Shown: positions 2,673 through 26,309 of the stretch, one piece after another
How positions within the stretch are numbered: the stretch's first letter is position 1
Layout of the letters: each line of letters starts with the position of its first letter
DNA from: a virus
IMG/VR virus record: IMGVR_UViG_3300035199_000041
Span: 1-27,299 of that record
Length of the DNA stretch: 27,299 nucleotides
Reading direction: 5' to 3' (one strand)
The notes under the pieces: generated by a model
Databases searched by the model: none
What the model was told of the DNA's origin: nothing
The model's input: the letters and a program-made list of their open reading frames with translations, nothing else
Program-made: the position numbers and the translations under genes

Positions 2673-3494
2673 ATGAGCATCAAGATAATGTCCCAGGTCT
2701 GGGAATTGGATTTACCTCACAACGCCCAGTCGATATTCCTGGCATTGGCAGACCACGCCGACGACGATGGCTATTGCTACCCAAGCGTGGGGCGGCTGGC
2801 GTGGAAAACCGGTTACGGAATCCGACAAGTCCAGCGGACACTCAAAGACCTCCGGGACCAAAAGCTGGCGATCCCCACCGGGTCGGTGGCTGGCGGACGG
2901 CATAATACCGTCGTCTATAGACTCGACCCATCCGCCGGCAAGCAAAAACCGCCCTTCCAACCGAGGACAGAACGCCAGATATTGGCGGATATAAAGGGTG
3001 ACAATTTGACACCCTTTGACGCTGAGACCGAAATAAAGGGTGACACCCAGGACGCGGAAAGGGTGACATTTGAGACAGAAAGGGTGACACCGGAGACGCT
3101 AAAGGGTGACATAGCTATGTCATCCGAACCACCAGTAATCATCAAAGAATCATCAAAAGAACCGTCAGGGGAGATGTCCGACTTGCCGTCGGACCCATCG
3201 CCCGATTGGTTCGATGTCTTATCAGGACTCCCAAAGTTCAAAACCTCCCTGGCCGACGCCGAGGCGTGGTTATCAAAGAAAGCCATCACCGCCGACCAGG
3301 CCGAGGATACCGCTTACGAAGTCAAAGCATTTATCGCTCGATCCAAAAATGAAGGCCGCGACCCGTGGGCGACATTCCAGAATTGGGCGCGGAAGGATTC
3401 CCGGTCGAGTCCGCCGCCGGCCGCCGATGTTGACCCGATAGAGAAACACCGCCAAGCCGCCGCCGAGATCGCGGCCAGGAGGGCCAACCGATGA
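2673..3494 (+). CDS. Phage replication initiator, winged-helix (lambda O-like role)
   Basis: 273 residues with SD GGGAGGAGG before ATG 2673. Residues 1-95 form a winged helix typical of phage replication proteins: the opening MSQVWELDLPHNAQSIFLAL, the phrase DGYCYPSVGRLAWKTG and the recognition segment GIRQVQRTLKDLRDQ. The middle (about 100-170) is low complexity and encodes the iterons. Residues 175-245 (SLADAEAWLSKKAITADQAE and following) form a second helical domain that may contact the helicase loader. The downstream gene is a DnaC-type loader overlapping by ATGA, which is the classic phage initiator-loader pair. It would bind the origin and recruit the host helicase. Confidence 0.85.
   Translation: MSIKIMSQVWELDLPHNAQSIFLALADHADDDGYCYPSVGRLAWKTGYGIRQVQRTLKDLRDQKLAIPTGSVAGGRHNTVVYRLDPSAGKQKPPFQPRTERQILADIKGDNLTPFDAETEIKGDTQDAERVTFETERVTPETLKGDIAMSSEPPVIIKESSKEPSGEMSDLPSDPSPDWFDVLSGLPKFKTSLADAEAWLSKKAITADQAEDTAYEVKAFIARSKNEGRDPWATFQNWARKDSRSSPPPAADVDPIEKHRQAAAEIAARRANR
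2993..3111 (+). repeat. Iterons: five direct repeats of AAAGGGTGACA (probable origin)
   Basis: Five exact copies of AAAGGGTGACA start at 2993, 3035, 3058, 3079 and 3101; the last four are 21-23 nt apart, about two helical turns. A degenerate inverted copy lies at about 3007-3017. Copies 1, 2 and 5 are read as Lys-Gly-Asp, copies 3 and 4 as Glu-Arg-Val-Thr, so the DNA and not the peptide is conserved. Location inside the initiator gene matches lambda-type origins. Confidence 0.85.
3131..3160 (+). other. A-rich tandem repeats beside iterons, candidate unwinding element
   Basis: Directly after the iterons the sequence drops to about 30% GC (hand count) in a region otherwise near 60%. It contains two tandem copies of AATCATCAAAG (3137-3147 and 3148-3159, the second with one extra A). 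AT-rich tandem repeats next to iterons are the usual form of a DNA unwinding element. It encodes an Ile-Lys-Glu-Ser-rich linker of the initiator. Confidence 0.6.
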
Positions 3495-5024: not shown

Positions 5025-5258
5025 GTGCGAAATAAGACTCGGCGATATATGGAGAGCCGCGTTACTGGCTATTATCCTTATTATAAATTGCAATGGTGGA
5101 ATCCTGTAATGATGGCTTGGCAAGACATCCAAAGACGCTATGAGACTCCAAGTGACGCATTAGCAGGAACGATTCCATCATTAGGAACAGGACAAGCCCG
5201 TCAAGTCATAGAAGTTCAAAGCCGAGGGCATAGGATAATATACGAATGCAACAAATAG
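5025..5258 (+). CDS. Hypothetical AT-rich small protein
   Basis: 77 residues from GTG 5025, preceded by AAGGAGG at 5014-5020 (4-nt spacing). The in-frame ATG at 5007 has no SD, and the SD would lie inside its coding region. The protein is aromatic and basic (MESRVTGYYPYYKLQWWNPV), ending in a strand-like HRIIYECNK. It resembles small phage proteins that modify an input string such as 'WxDxxxRYxTxxxA', but I do not recognise a family. GC is about 47% (hand count over 5101-5160), clearly below upstream genes, so it probably came in with the methyltransferase that overlaps its 3' end. Confidence 0.55.
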   Translation: MRNKTRRYMESRVTGYYPYYKLQWWNPVMMAWQDIQRRYETPSDALAGTIPSLGTGQARQVIEVQSRGHRIIYECNK

Positions 5259-6139
5259 ATTTATTCGGTAATCCGGTTGATGTGTTCAAGTCGGCCAAGG
5301 CCCGTTATGGCGTATGGCCTGTGACTATATGGCCCATTGATTCGTCAGACAAATATACAAAAGAACTAAAAACACTCATTGGAGATGACCCGAATGACAT
5401 CCTCGCCAATGGTAGCGGTGAGGCGACGCAATCCAGGACGAACTCCAATAGCGGACAACGGTCAGGGTCTAAAATCTATTCCTCTCCAAATGCACCAGGC
5501 CAAACAACCCACACAAGCATCTTTAATCCGGCAGTTGCGGCGTGGTTGTTGAATTGTTATGCACCTGATGGAGGAGTTTGTCTCGACCCGTTTGCCGGTG
5601 GTGGAACAAGGGCAATAATGGCGGCGAAGCATGGCCTGGAATATATCGGACTGGAAATACGCCCGGAGGAAGTGGCGGCGGTGCGTCGTCGTTGTGACAT
5701 GCTTGGGGCGCAGGCGACGATTATTAAAGACGATGCCCGGAATTGCGGCACATATGGCCCAGCAGCATTTTGCCTGACTTGTCCTCCCTATTACGACTTG
5801 GAAATGTACTCCGGCGGTGGGGCCGATCTGTCAATGTTGCCCACTTACAAGGACTTTCTCGATGCCATTTATGACGTTGTCGCAGGGACACGGGATGCCT
5901 TAATCCCTGGCGCTACATCATGTTGGGTCATAGGCTTACATCGGAGCAAAGATGGCGGTTTGTTACCTCTACACCATGACATAGCGAGAATACATCGGGA
6001 ACTCGGGTTCTTATTTCGGGAGGAAATCATCTTACATCATGCTAATAATGGGGCTATTCAACGTATCGGCAACTTTGACAAAGGGCAACATAGGCTTGTG
6101 CGTGTGCATGAATATGCCCTGATCTTTACACGCCCGTAA
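5246..6139 (+). CDS. DNA methyltransferase (amino-MTase, motif I before motif IV)
   Basis: 297 residues. The SAM-binding motif CLDPFAGGGT (112-121) precedes the catalytic motif TCPPYYD (178-184), an order opposite to the two other methyltransferases here. The PPY core marks an exocyclic-amine (N6-adenine or N4-cytosine) enzyme; which base cannot be told. Residues 1-90 form an extra N-terminal region with a polar spacer (GSGEATQSRTNSNSGQRSG). ATG 5246 overlaps the previous gene by 13 nt; its SD is weak. No restriction endonuclease partner is visible, so it is probably an orphan that protects phage DNA. The gene is AT-rich relative to its neighbours, suggesting transfer. Confidence 0.88.
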   Translation: MQQIDLFGNPVDVFKSAKARYGVWPVTIWPIDSSDKYTKELKTLIGDDPNDILANGSGEATQSRTNSNSGQRSGSKIYSSPNAPGQTTHTSIFNPAVAAWLLNCYAPDGGVCLDPFAGGGTRAIMAAKHGLEYIGLEIRPEEVAAVRRRCDMLGAQATIIKDDARNCGTYGPAAFCLTCPPYYDLEMYSGGGADLSMLPTYKDFLDAIYDVVAGTRDALIPGATSCWVIGLHRSKDGGLLPLHHDIARIHRELGFLFREEIILHHANNGAIQRIGNFDKGQHRLVRVHEYALIFTRP

Positions 6140-7921: not shown

Positions 7922-9133
7922 ATGACGATGAAAGACCGCGTCAAGGAACTCCGCCGAGTCCCGGCGTCCGAACTCCGGGCCAACCCGAAGAACTGGCGCC
8001 GGCATCCACCGTCCCAGGAAGCCGCCCTGCGGGGAGTCCTAGAGGACATCGGCTTCGCGGACGCGGTCATCGCCAGGGAGACCGACGACGGTCTGGAGCT
8101 GATAGACGGCCACCTCCGGCAAGAGGTCATGGGCGACCAAGTCGTCCCGGTGTTGATCGTGGACGTAACCGAGGAGGAAGCGGACAAGATGCTCCTCACT
8201 TACGACCCGCTGGCGATGATGGCCCACGCCGACCAGGACCAACTCCTCAACCTACTACGCGACACCCAGTTCGAATCCAAAGCGGTCAACGATATGCTGG
8301 AGGCCGTCGCCAACGGGGAACGGCTCCCGATGCCGGACTTGACCGAGCCGGTGGAAGACCCAGGCCCACAGATAGACCGGGCCGACGAGCTGCGGGAGAA
8401 GTGGCAGACCGAGCGGGGCCAGGTCTGGGAGGTCGGACGGCATCGGCTGATGTGCGGGGATTGTACATTGGCAGAAGCTCAGGATTTAATGGTCAATGTG
8501 ACAGTTCAGTTAATGCTAACTGACCCGCCTTATGGAGTTGACTATGGGGAGTTGGTAAGAAGTAGGGCTAATCAAAAAAAGGGAGGGTGGAGTGACATAA
8601 AGAACGATGCGCTTGATGATGATGAGTTATTGTCCTTATTGACGGCTGGCCTTGAAGGGTTTGGTGCTTCAGTGGCTTTTGTCTGGCACCCGCCGGGTGC
8701 CAGACGCATGTTGTTTTGGCAGGCTTTGGAAGCGCATGGATGGCGGATTGCACAAGAAATCATATGGGTTAAGAATGCATTGGTATTCGGTCGTTCTGAT
8801 TACCAATGGAGACATGAGCCTTGTTTATACGCCAAACGCGGTGAAGCACCAATCCAAGGGGACAGAACTCAAACGACGGTGTGGGAAATCCCGAAGCAAG
8901 CTCACGCTGAACATCCCACACAGAAACCGTTGGAATTATTCATAATCCCAATTAAAAATCATACAGCGAATGGAGCAATAGTAGTTGACCCATTCCTCGG
9001 CTCGGGGACGACGATGGTCGCCGCCGAGCAACTGGGTCGCATCTGCTACGGGATGGAGATTGAGCCGAAGTATGTCGCGGTGACCCTGGAGCGGATGTCC
9101 GGCATGGGACTTGAGCCGAAGTTGGTGGAGTGA
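7922..9133 (+). CDS. ParB-like nuclease domain fused to beta-class DNA methyltransferase
   Basis: 403 residues. Residues 10-130 are a ParB/Srx-type domain: VPASELRANPKNWRRHP, then ELIDGHLRQEV (59-69, the ParB GHxR-like motif) and PVLIVDVTEEEA. Residues 168-395 are a methyltransferase with LTDPPYG (199-205), HPTQKP (331-336) and DPFLGSGTT (356-364). This architecture is common beside phage terminases and may mark or protect DNA for packaging. SD GGGGA is 9 nt before ATG 7922 and sits in the leader hairpin. DNA from about 8460 to 8995 is only about 40-43% GC while both flanks are near 60%, so the methyltransferase core appears exchanged within an otherwise native gene. Confidence 0.93.
   Translation: MTMKDRVKELRRVPASELRANPKNWRRHPPSQEAALRGVLEDIGFADAVIARETDDGLELIDGHLRQEVMGDQVVPVLIVDVTEEEADKMLLTYDPLAMMAHADQDQLLNLLRDTQFESKAVNDMLEAVANGERLPMPDLTEPVEDPGPQIDRADELREKWQTERGQVWEVGRHRLMCGDCTLAEAQDLMVNVTVQLMLTDPPYGVDYGELVRSRANQKKGGWSDIKNDALDDDELLSLLTAGLEGFGASVAFVWHPPGARRMLFWQALEAHGWRIAQEIIWVKNALVFGRSDYQWRHEPCLYAKRGEAPIQGDRTQTTVWEIPKQAHAEHPTQKPLELFIIPIKNHTANGAIVVDPFLGSGTTMVAAEQLGRICYGMEIEPKYVAVTLERMSGMGLEPKLVE
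8681..8705 (+). repeat. Perfect 11-bp inverted repeat inside the methyltransferase
   Basis: GTCTGGCACCC and GGGTGCCAGAC are exact reverse complements separated by GCC. They encode Val-Trp-His-Pro-Pro-Gly-Ala-Arg within the low-GC methyltransferase core. A GC-rich hairpin of this quality in coding DNA is unusual. It could be an mRNA structure or a binding site, or simply chance. Confidence 0.7.
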
Positions 9134-24776: not shown

Positions 24777-26309
24777 ATGGTCGTTGCAACGTACAAGCTC
24801 CAGGTAGATTGGAACAACGACGGTGACTGGGGTGACACCGGGGAGGAGATCGACATGGGCCGGGTCCGCGGTATCACTTGCAGTTTCGGGAGGGACCGGG
24901 CATCGCAACTGACCGGGAAATCGAAATCGGGAAGCCTCCGGGCCGTGCTAGACAACCGGTCCGGGGACTATAACCAGTTCAATGCCGACTCGCCCATATA
25001 TGGCAACATCCTCCCAGGCCGTCCGGTCCGGTTGTTGGGGACATCAACCACCCAGTCCGATCAAGCTATATGGCAGGGCTACCTCCTCCGGATAACTCCC
25101 CAAGTTTTCCTGGGCGGCGATGCGATTGCGATCCTTGAATGCACCGGGCCGCTCGGCCAGGTAAATCTGGACCAAATCGAAGTCGCCATGGTCACTTCCC
25201 AAAGGACGGACCAGGTCGTGGACGACATCCTGGACGCCGCCGGTTGGGGCGCGGGGAGTAGCTACCGGACCCTGGACACCGGGAAGACGACCATTACGAG
25301 ATATTGGAAGTCGGCCACCTACACCGTCCCGGCCCTCCAGGAGGTGGAGTCCACCGAGGGCGGATTCATCAGGGAAGGGAAGAACGGGAAGATTATCTTC
25401 GACAACCGCCACCATCGCCTGTCCGGCGTGGGTCTGACCTCTCAGGCAACCTACTCGGACGCCTCGGGCGCGGCGAGGGTATATTCCGGCCTCATCATGG
25501 ATGACCCGCTCCCGCATATATTCAACATCTTTGAGACCGATGTCCAGACCTACACGACCGCCAGCGTGGCGGTACTCTGGACGCTTTCGGAGACCGGCGC
25601 CAGCTCCCCGTCCATCTCTCCCGGTGTGGCTAAGACTTACATCGCCCGGTATCCGACCACCGCCTCGGCCAACAACGCCAGGGGAGTTAACGCCTGGACA
25701 ACCACGGCGGCAACAACCGATATGCTGGGGAATACGGCGGCTGACGGCTCTGGGACTAACGTGACGGCGTCCATCGGTATCTCCGTTAGCAAGTCCTCGG
25801 AGACGATGGAGATCACCCTGACGAATAACACCTCGGCCACGGCTTACATAACCAAACTCCAGGCCAGGGGAACGGCCATCACGGCGGACGACCCGGCCTC
25901 CATCAAACAGGAAGACGCCACCTCCAAGACCGCCTTCGGCAAAAGAACTTGGCCGAGCAAGACCAAATTCATCCCGGATACCGGCGAGGCATTGGACTGG
26001 GCCGATTTCAACCTCTCGATCTATAAAGACCCGACCGCCGTCCTTGAGTTGAGTTATTTCGCCAATCGGGACACCAACGCCATCAATGAGATGTTGGACC
26101 GGGACATATCGGAACGGGTGACCGTGGTCGCAGACAACACGGCAGACCTCTCGCTGAACCGGGACTTCTTCATCGAGGGAGTCCACCATCAGATCGACGC
26201 CAACCGGCTCCATCAGGTGACGTACCTCCTCTCGGACGCCATTCAATTCTCTGATTTTTGGGTCTTGAATACGTCCGCCCTCGGGACTCAAACCAGGCTG
26301 GCTTACTGA
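24777..26309 (+). CDS. Distal tail / hub-associated protein
   Basis: 510 residues; ATG directly follows the tape measure stop. The N-terminal part (MVVATYKLQVDWNNDGDWGD, then SGSLRAVLDNRSGDYNQFNA and PGRPVRLLG) is a beta-rich domain common in distal tail proteins of phages from actinobacteria and others; 'LxVDWNxDGxW' is a distinctive opening. The middle (about 260-370) is a Thr/Ser-rich beta domain that may bind the surface. The C-terminal part (ELSYFANRDTNAINEMLDRD, then GVHHQID) resembles hub-type baseplate domains. Location after the tape measure supports a tail-tip role. No peptidase motif is visible. Confidence 0.75.
   Translation: MVVATYKLQVDWNNDGDWGDTGEEIDMGRVRGITCSFGRDRASQLTGKSKSGSLRAVLDNRSGDYNQFNADSPIYGNILPGRPVRLLGTSTTQSDQAIWQGYLLRITPQVFLGGDAIAILECTGPLGQVNLDQIEVAMVTSQRTDQVVDDILDAAGWGAGSSYRTLDTGKTTITRYWKSATYTVPALQEVESTEGGFIREGKNGKIIFDNRHHRLSGVGLTSQATYSDASGAARVYSGLIMDDPLPHIFNIFETDVQTYTTASVAVLWTLSETGASSPSISPGVAKTYIARYPTTASANNARGVNAWTTTAATTDMLGNTAADGSGTNVTASIGISVSKSSETMEITLTNNTSATAYITKLQARGTAITADDPASIKQEDATSKTAFGKRTWPSKTKFIPDTGEALDWADFNLSIYKDPTAVLELSYFANRDTNAINEMLDRDISERVTVVADNTADLSLNRDFFIEGVHHQIDANRLHQVTYLLSDAIQFSDFWVLNTSALGTQTRLAY

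Follow-up and report, generated by a model that had tools for sequence, protein, structure and literature searches.

The locus examined in the present study raises the question of whether exact repeats inside a phage initiator gene form a replication origin. To our knowledge, phage origins have seldom been mapped apart from those of a handful of models, and sequence is all that is available for most phages. The window, i.e., the whole stretch analysed, is the IMG/VR fragment IMGVR_UViG_3300035199_000041 (27,299 bases), which is the entire record. It belongs to a tailed phage, as shown by matches to portal, capsid, terminase, and tape-measure proteins in other parts of the window. We estimate a probability of approximately 0.88 that the repeats belong to the replication origin of the phage and that this origin lies within the gene of its own initiator. 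The features of the locus are listed in Table 1.

Table 1. Positions of the features of the initiator locus in the window
Feature	Position	Strand	Basis or remark
Initiator gene, 273 aa	2673..3494	+	HTH_36, phrog_1032, AlphaFold2 model
Recognition helix, residues 50-62	2820..2858	+	AlphaFold2 model and covariation
Iteron 1 AAAGGGTGACA	2993..3003	+	codon phase 2, read IKGDN
Inverted iteron copy AAAGGGTGTCA, faces iteron 1	3007..3017	-	sequence match
Iteron 2 AAAGGGTGACA	3035..3045	+	codon phase 2, read IKGDT
Iteron 3 AAAGGGTGACA	3058..3068	+	codon phase 1, read ERVTF
Iteron 4 AAAGGGTGACA	3079..3089	+	codon phase 1, read ERVTP
Iteron 5 AAAGGGTGACA	3101..3111	+	codon phase 2, read LKGDI
22-bp near-palindrome GGGTGACATAGCTATGTCATCC, end of array, overlaps iteron 5	3104..3125		sequence inspection
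AT-rich stretch, proposed DNA unwinding element	3127..3168		GC content
Candidate unwinding-element repeat 1 AACCACCA, degenerate AAYCRYCA	3127..3134	+	sequence match
Candidate unwinding-element repeat 2 AATCATCA	3137..3144	+	sequence match
Candidate unwinding-element repeat 3 AATCATCA	3148..3155	+	sequence match
Candidate unwinding-element repeat 4 AACCGTCA	3160..3167	+	sequence match
DnaC-like helicase loader, 280 aa	3491..4333	+	phrog_50 3.8e-27; IstB_IS21 1.3e-07

Initiator gene and iteron array

The initiator comprises an N-terminal winged-helix DNA-binding domain, a linker that holds the putative origin, and a variable C-terminal domain. Its product matched HTH_36 in Pfam (5.9e-13, 48.8 bits against a cut-off of 25) and, with residues 1-245 covered, the phrog_1032 profile of replication initiation proteins (7.9e-23). 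The AlphaFold2 model of residues 1-96, for which 38 N-terminal domain sequences were aligned, was a confident winged helix (pLDDT 92). A sequence-based search found no solved structure for the initiator, and a fold search with the model retrieved generic winged helices only (best E 3e-3); the plasmid initiators RepE-ssDNA (8ac8) and pPS10 RepA (1hkq) ranked far down and were not counted as evidence. The start of the loader gene overlaps the initiator stop. Rfam and tRNA scans of the 27,299-base window gave no match. Two DNA methyltransferase-like genes are located at 5246-6139 and 7922-9133 of the window. Methyltransferase profiles matched the product of the latter from residue 175 onward only, and its N-terminal part may be ParB-like, as judged by eye.

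Five exact copies of AAAGGGTGACA lie inside the initiator gene, downstream of the DNA-binding domain, as in lambda-type origins, at steps of 42, 23, 21, and 22 nt. The earlier note had described these copies, the last four at a spacing of 21-23 nt, as read KGD in three cases and ERVT in two, and both observations were reproduced: three copies use codon phase 2, and the other two use phase 1. The array is non-random. In 40,000 protein-preserving nulls (20,000 synonymous-codon permutations and 20,000 resamplings from the codon usage of the record), no 11-mer reached more than three copies. The scan for further copies that had been proposed found none in the rest of the 27,299-base record, which is an IMG/VR fragment. 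The core GGGTGWCA has seven occurrences in the cluster, two of which are on the minus strand; the rest of the record contains one more, at 24830.

This array lies in the segment that encodes a low-complexity linker joining two domains, and such linkers are commonly repetitive; a tandem KGD/RVT peptide may, in principle, be the actual feature and the DNA repeats its by-product. However, the codon phase differs among the copies, the repeats vanish under codon permutation, and the step across the family is 22 nt, which is no multiple of 3. As neither 22 nor 23 is divisible by three, arrays with these steps are not peptide repeats. Substitutions among relatives also argue against a peptide linker (Table 1 positions; relatives L006 and L008). 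Third-position changes affected 18 of the first 105 codons in L006 and 28 of 105 in L008, and 3/23 and 5/23 codons, respectively, between the iterons, versus 0/20 inside the iterons in both. Each relative differed at a single iteron base, where T replaced a central A (GGGTGACA to GGGTGTCA). This substitution altered the amino acid and kept GGGTGWCA; changes in the iterons thus alter the protein and preserve the DNA motif. The protein-repeat reading was rejected based on the phase shifts and codon permutation, and we assign it a negligible probability. The iterons are conserved at the DNA level, as the change of frame had led the earlier note to claim.

The site of the terminal near-palindrome is a perfect palindrome, GGGTGACATAGCTATGTCACCC, in L006, L008, and L016, and slightly altered forms of the iteron 1 dyad and the terminal near-palindrome are present in L006, L008, L015, and L016. 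The inverted copy and the palindrome look like operator-type dimer sites, and the sites bound by an initiator close to its gene often have a control function too. The sites may, therefore, be operators of the initiator, acting in autoregulation, as a transcription roadblock, or in copy-number control by handcuffing, and not the origin itself. We consider this improbable: the array is approximately 320 nt inside the gene, away from the promoter, and a conserved AT-rich tandem repeat comes next, in a constant position, ahead of the loader gene. An identical order is found in the origin of lambda (PMC7466680).

Iteron words and the recognition helix across the family

Relatives were gathered by protein only from IMG/VR and GTDB genomes and reduced to 123 initiators that were less than 80% identical. 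Exact 8-mers downstream of codon 60 were surveyed with no preset spacing and with codon permutation as the null. Repeats at 22 nt were present in 83/123 genes (null 4.7), at 23 nt in 44 (null 3.0), and at 21 nt in 29 (null 7.8). Further classes were detected at 17 nt (49 genes, null 3.6), which chiefly consists of C-tract arrays such as CACCCCCGCAG, and at 11 nt (33 genes, null 1.9). About a fifth of the relatives had no clear 22-nt array by this exact-word method. Four C-tract arrays (CACCCCCGCAG...CTGC; L040, L391, L598, and L600) mix 17- and 22-nt steps, which suggests alternating spacers between dyad half-sites.

The iteron word, which the earlier note did not recognise, is indeed unfamiliar; of 12 papers with text matches for AAAGGGTGACA, the 11 listed were unrelated by title. 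However, it is not unique to the window, with a protein-blind scan of IMG/VR detecting tandem AAAGGGTGWCA in approximately 100 stretches. In the 80 stretches examined, most clusters were inside same-strand HTH initiators and were mostly spaced at 21, 22, or 23 nt, a peak that is informative within 19-27 only because the scan preset one pair to steps in that range. In eight stretches (L144, L152, L161, L175, L185, L186, L206, and L207), three or four copies of AAAGGGTGACA are spaced at 11-12 nt, which equals one helical turn, and the gene that contains them encodes an HTH protein of another, short type. The recognition helix SVQR was also found in the two of these short proteins examined, L144 and L175. 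These arrays are possibly a one-turn variant of the same recognition.

An iteron word, defined as the 4-mer that, on either strand, was most enriched beside a C or G tract relative to codon permutations, was assigned in 104/123 initiators. Among 83 positions, residue 55 was the most informative on the repeated word (1.61 bits; shuffled 0.64), with residues 52 and 49 next; these three are about one helical turn apart, on the same face of the helix. Residues 49, 52, 55, and 58 of the window initiator, at the same spacing, are G, Q, R, and K. Lys55 occurred with GAAC in 10/10 initiators, Gly55 with GCAG in 6/7, and Ala55 with GAAG in 7/12; Arg55 occurred with GWCA in only 30 of the 54 word-assigned Arg55 initiators, and, thus, exceptions exist. 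Among pairs less than 45% identical, 34% of those with the same residue 55 shared the word, versus 4% of those in which this residue differed. Phylogenetically independent pairs (n=52), taken from a tree that omitted positions 49, 52, and 55, had the same word in 19/29 cases with the same residue 55 and in 3/23 with a different one (p=1.4e-4); position 55 ranked first of 78, followed by 52 and 58, with 49 fifth. All 25 initiators with at least two AAAGGGTGWCA copies, whose median pairwise identity is 36%, have Arg55, a residue found in 50 of the remaining 98 (p=6e-7, with no correction for relatedness). Since the iteron word tracks residues 55, 52, 49, and 58 and Arg55 is present in 25/25, the product of the gene very probably reads its own iterons. 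This correlation between helix and word is the best available evidence for initiator-repeat binding, which it suggests at the level of sequence.

Relatives have exchanged the DNA-binding domain and iterons together, as would be the case for two matched partners. The window and L008 share iterons and a 94% identical DNA-binding domain, whereas their C-terminal domains are 27% identical. The window and L009 are 75% identical in the C-terminal domain and 48% in the DNA-binding domain, and their iterons differ; L008 and L011 are 52% identical in the DNA-binding domain and 82% in the C-terminal domain. The loader of L010 is 96% identical to that of the window, with a DNA-binding domain at 53% and different iterons. 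L010 and L019 (contig IMGVR_UViG_3300035199_000057) both combine this 96% loader with the 53% domain and iterons AAAGGCGGACA, and their sequences indicate a recent swap of the initiator-origin module. The L009 initiator (L009:2416-3450) has an HNH endonuclease domain (PF01844, 1e-07) between the DNA-binding domain and iteron region, and its own iterons are AAAAGGGTGCCA.

The AT-rich array

The earlier note had reported two tandem repeats in a stretch of approximately 30% GC on the 3' side of the iterons. A tandem exists; however, the second repeat is AATCATCAAAA followed by G, and the exact tandem word is, therefore, AATCATCAAA, which is part of a four-copy AAYCRYCA array. The dip is local and reaches 31% in the lowest 35-nt segment, but amounts to 34% over 3137-3168, versus 56% in the initiator gene, and is not the lowest of the record. 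An AT-rich sequence is thus present 3' of the iterons, as in lambda-type origins.

Across the family, the corresponding repeats at 10-12 nt are AACC[A/G]TCA. Of the 123 genes, 82 contained AACCRTCA at least once (null 19.0) and 49 contained it as a tandem pair (null 1.1). Copies numbered 160 on the coding strand versus 1 on the opposite strand, and all three reading frames were used (93/39/28). GC was 0.41 at the motif versus approximately 0.59 around it, and the first copy was 3' of the first iteron in 72 of the 72 genes scored. In a protein-blind scan for AACCRTCA tandems, 42 of 80 loci were inside HTH initiators, among the matches listed. The motif co-occurs with every large iteron class, and the genes adjoining its initiators encode DnaC-like, DnaB-like, and other families; therefore, it belongs to the initiator family and not to one iteron or loader. 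A loader-specific role was not favored because the neighboring genes are of several families.

Short tandem repeats on one strand of a DNA unwinding element (DUE) are known from other replicons. In RK2 oriV with TrfA and Vibrio cholerae ori2 with RctB, the iterons are bound as duplex and one DUE strand is bound single-stranded; the DUE repeats are four GGTT in RK2 and six ATCA in ori2 (PMC4081077, PMC10797057, PMC10316083). The present family has such repeats on one strand, in the form of degenerate copies in the window. TrfA and RctB are members of other families, distinct from the phage HTH_36 proteins. Both ATCA and GGTT (as its complement) occur within AACCATCA, which may be a coincidence. 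These features suggest that the AACCRTCA array is probably the unwinding element, and, by analogy with TrfA and RctB, we propose that one of its strands may be bound single-stranded.

The breakpoints of exchange between the DNA-binding domain plus iterons and the C-terminal domain fall around this array. It may, therefore, be a boundary sequence that aids recombinational module swaps rather than an unwinding element. We regard this explanation, which concerns the AACCRTCA array alone, as unlikely, but less so than an operator function of the iterons. Neither a strand bias nor a GC dip is needed at a recombination boundary, whereas the 10-12-nt tandems, strict strand bias, and GC dip of the array resemble the DUE repeats of RK2 and V. 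cholerae ori2 (PMC4081077, PMC10316083).

Comparison with lambda and proposed function

In the lambda ori, as in the window, iterons reside in the initiator gene between the DNA-binding and C-terminal domains, and the loader gene overlaps the end of the initiator. An AT-rich element is located just downstream of the lambda iterons (PMC7466680). The four annotated iterons of lambda O have steps of 20, 24, and 23, and the spacing in the window is likewise two-turn. In contrast, lambda O is a Phage_rep_O protein (PF04492, 5.7e-36), whereas the window initiator matched HTH_36 only and not PF04492; BLASTP detected no significant similarity between the two, and they match phrog_391 via opposite ends. 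Each lambda iteron is an 18-bp word with inverted symmetry and differs in form from those of the window, and AACCRTCA is absent from lambda O. The lambda loader P is PF06992, a family that the DnaC-like neighbor (phrog_50, IstB_IS21) did not match. The earlier note had called the locus a complete lambda-like origin. The layout, with iterons inside the initiator gene, an AT-rich element, and an adjacent loader, bears this out, but the likeness is confined to it: the HTH_36 domain, iterons, DnaC-like loader, and AACCRTCA repeats are not those of lambda. Based on the same layout with a different DNA-binding family, iterons, DUE repeat, and loader, the window origin is predicted to work like that of lambda without membership of the O family.

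The HTH "O-like" initiators of phages D14E, TC7, 1.236.O, VSN-002, and CUB19, whose hosts are Pseudomonas, Vibrio, Sphingopyxis, and Stenotrophomonas, have the HTH domain of the window's family. They carry in-gene arrays at 17, 21, or 22 nt together with AACCRTCA repeats. Their iteron words (e.g., CACCCCCGCAG and CCTAGTGACA) differ from that of the window, as do the neighbors of their initiators (a P-family protein and a DnaB-like helicase). The listed features of these five phage stretches included no origin annotation.

We infer initiator-iteron binding and origin activity from these sequences. The winged-helix domain of the 2673-3494 product would bind the AAAGGGTGWCA iterons, four of which are about two helical turns apart (21-23 nt); this spacing would align the initiators on one face of the DNA. 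Their assembly may strain the AT-rich stretch on the 3' side, upon which the tandem AAYCRYCA repeats would melt, and the coding strand of these repeats would probably be held single-stranded by the initiator or a partner. The host helicase may then be loaded by the DnaC-like product of the adjacent gene. No loader was recognized beside the initiator in several relatives. Cumulative GC skew, a check suggested by the earlier note, had no extreme near 3 kb and is uninformative there in a fragment.

The presence of iterons inside an initiator gene is an old idea. We found no description of the family-wide plan, the helix-word relation, or the common AACCRTCA array in open PMC papers, and their novelty is provisional because the literature search was confined to these papers. 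The odds appear even that these initiators represent a large, little-described class of phage origins, in which lineage-specific iterons are read by residues 49/52/55/58 (Arg55 GWCA, Lys55 GAAC, Gly55 GCAG, and Ala55 GAAG) and a common, strand-specific array of tandem AACCRTCA is held single-stranded by a conserved partner or by the initiator itself, with any iteron and any loader.

If this is true, the origins of many uncultured phages may be located from sequence, and iteron specificity may be predicted from a few residues. A single gene combines the protein, the sites that it would bind, and a candidate unwinding motif, and the variation of more than 100 lineages would provide a testable protein-DNA code. 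The family may also be a clean system for the evolution of an initiator gene that is constrained to double as a binding-site array. Moreover, with this family it could be tested concretely whether phage initiators, like those of plasmids and second chromosomes, hold one specific DUE strand.
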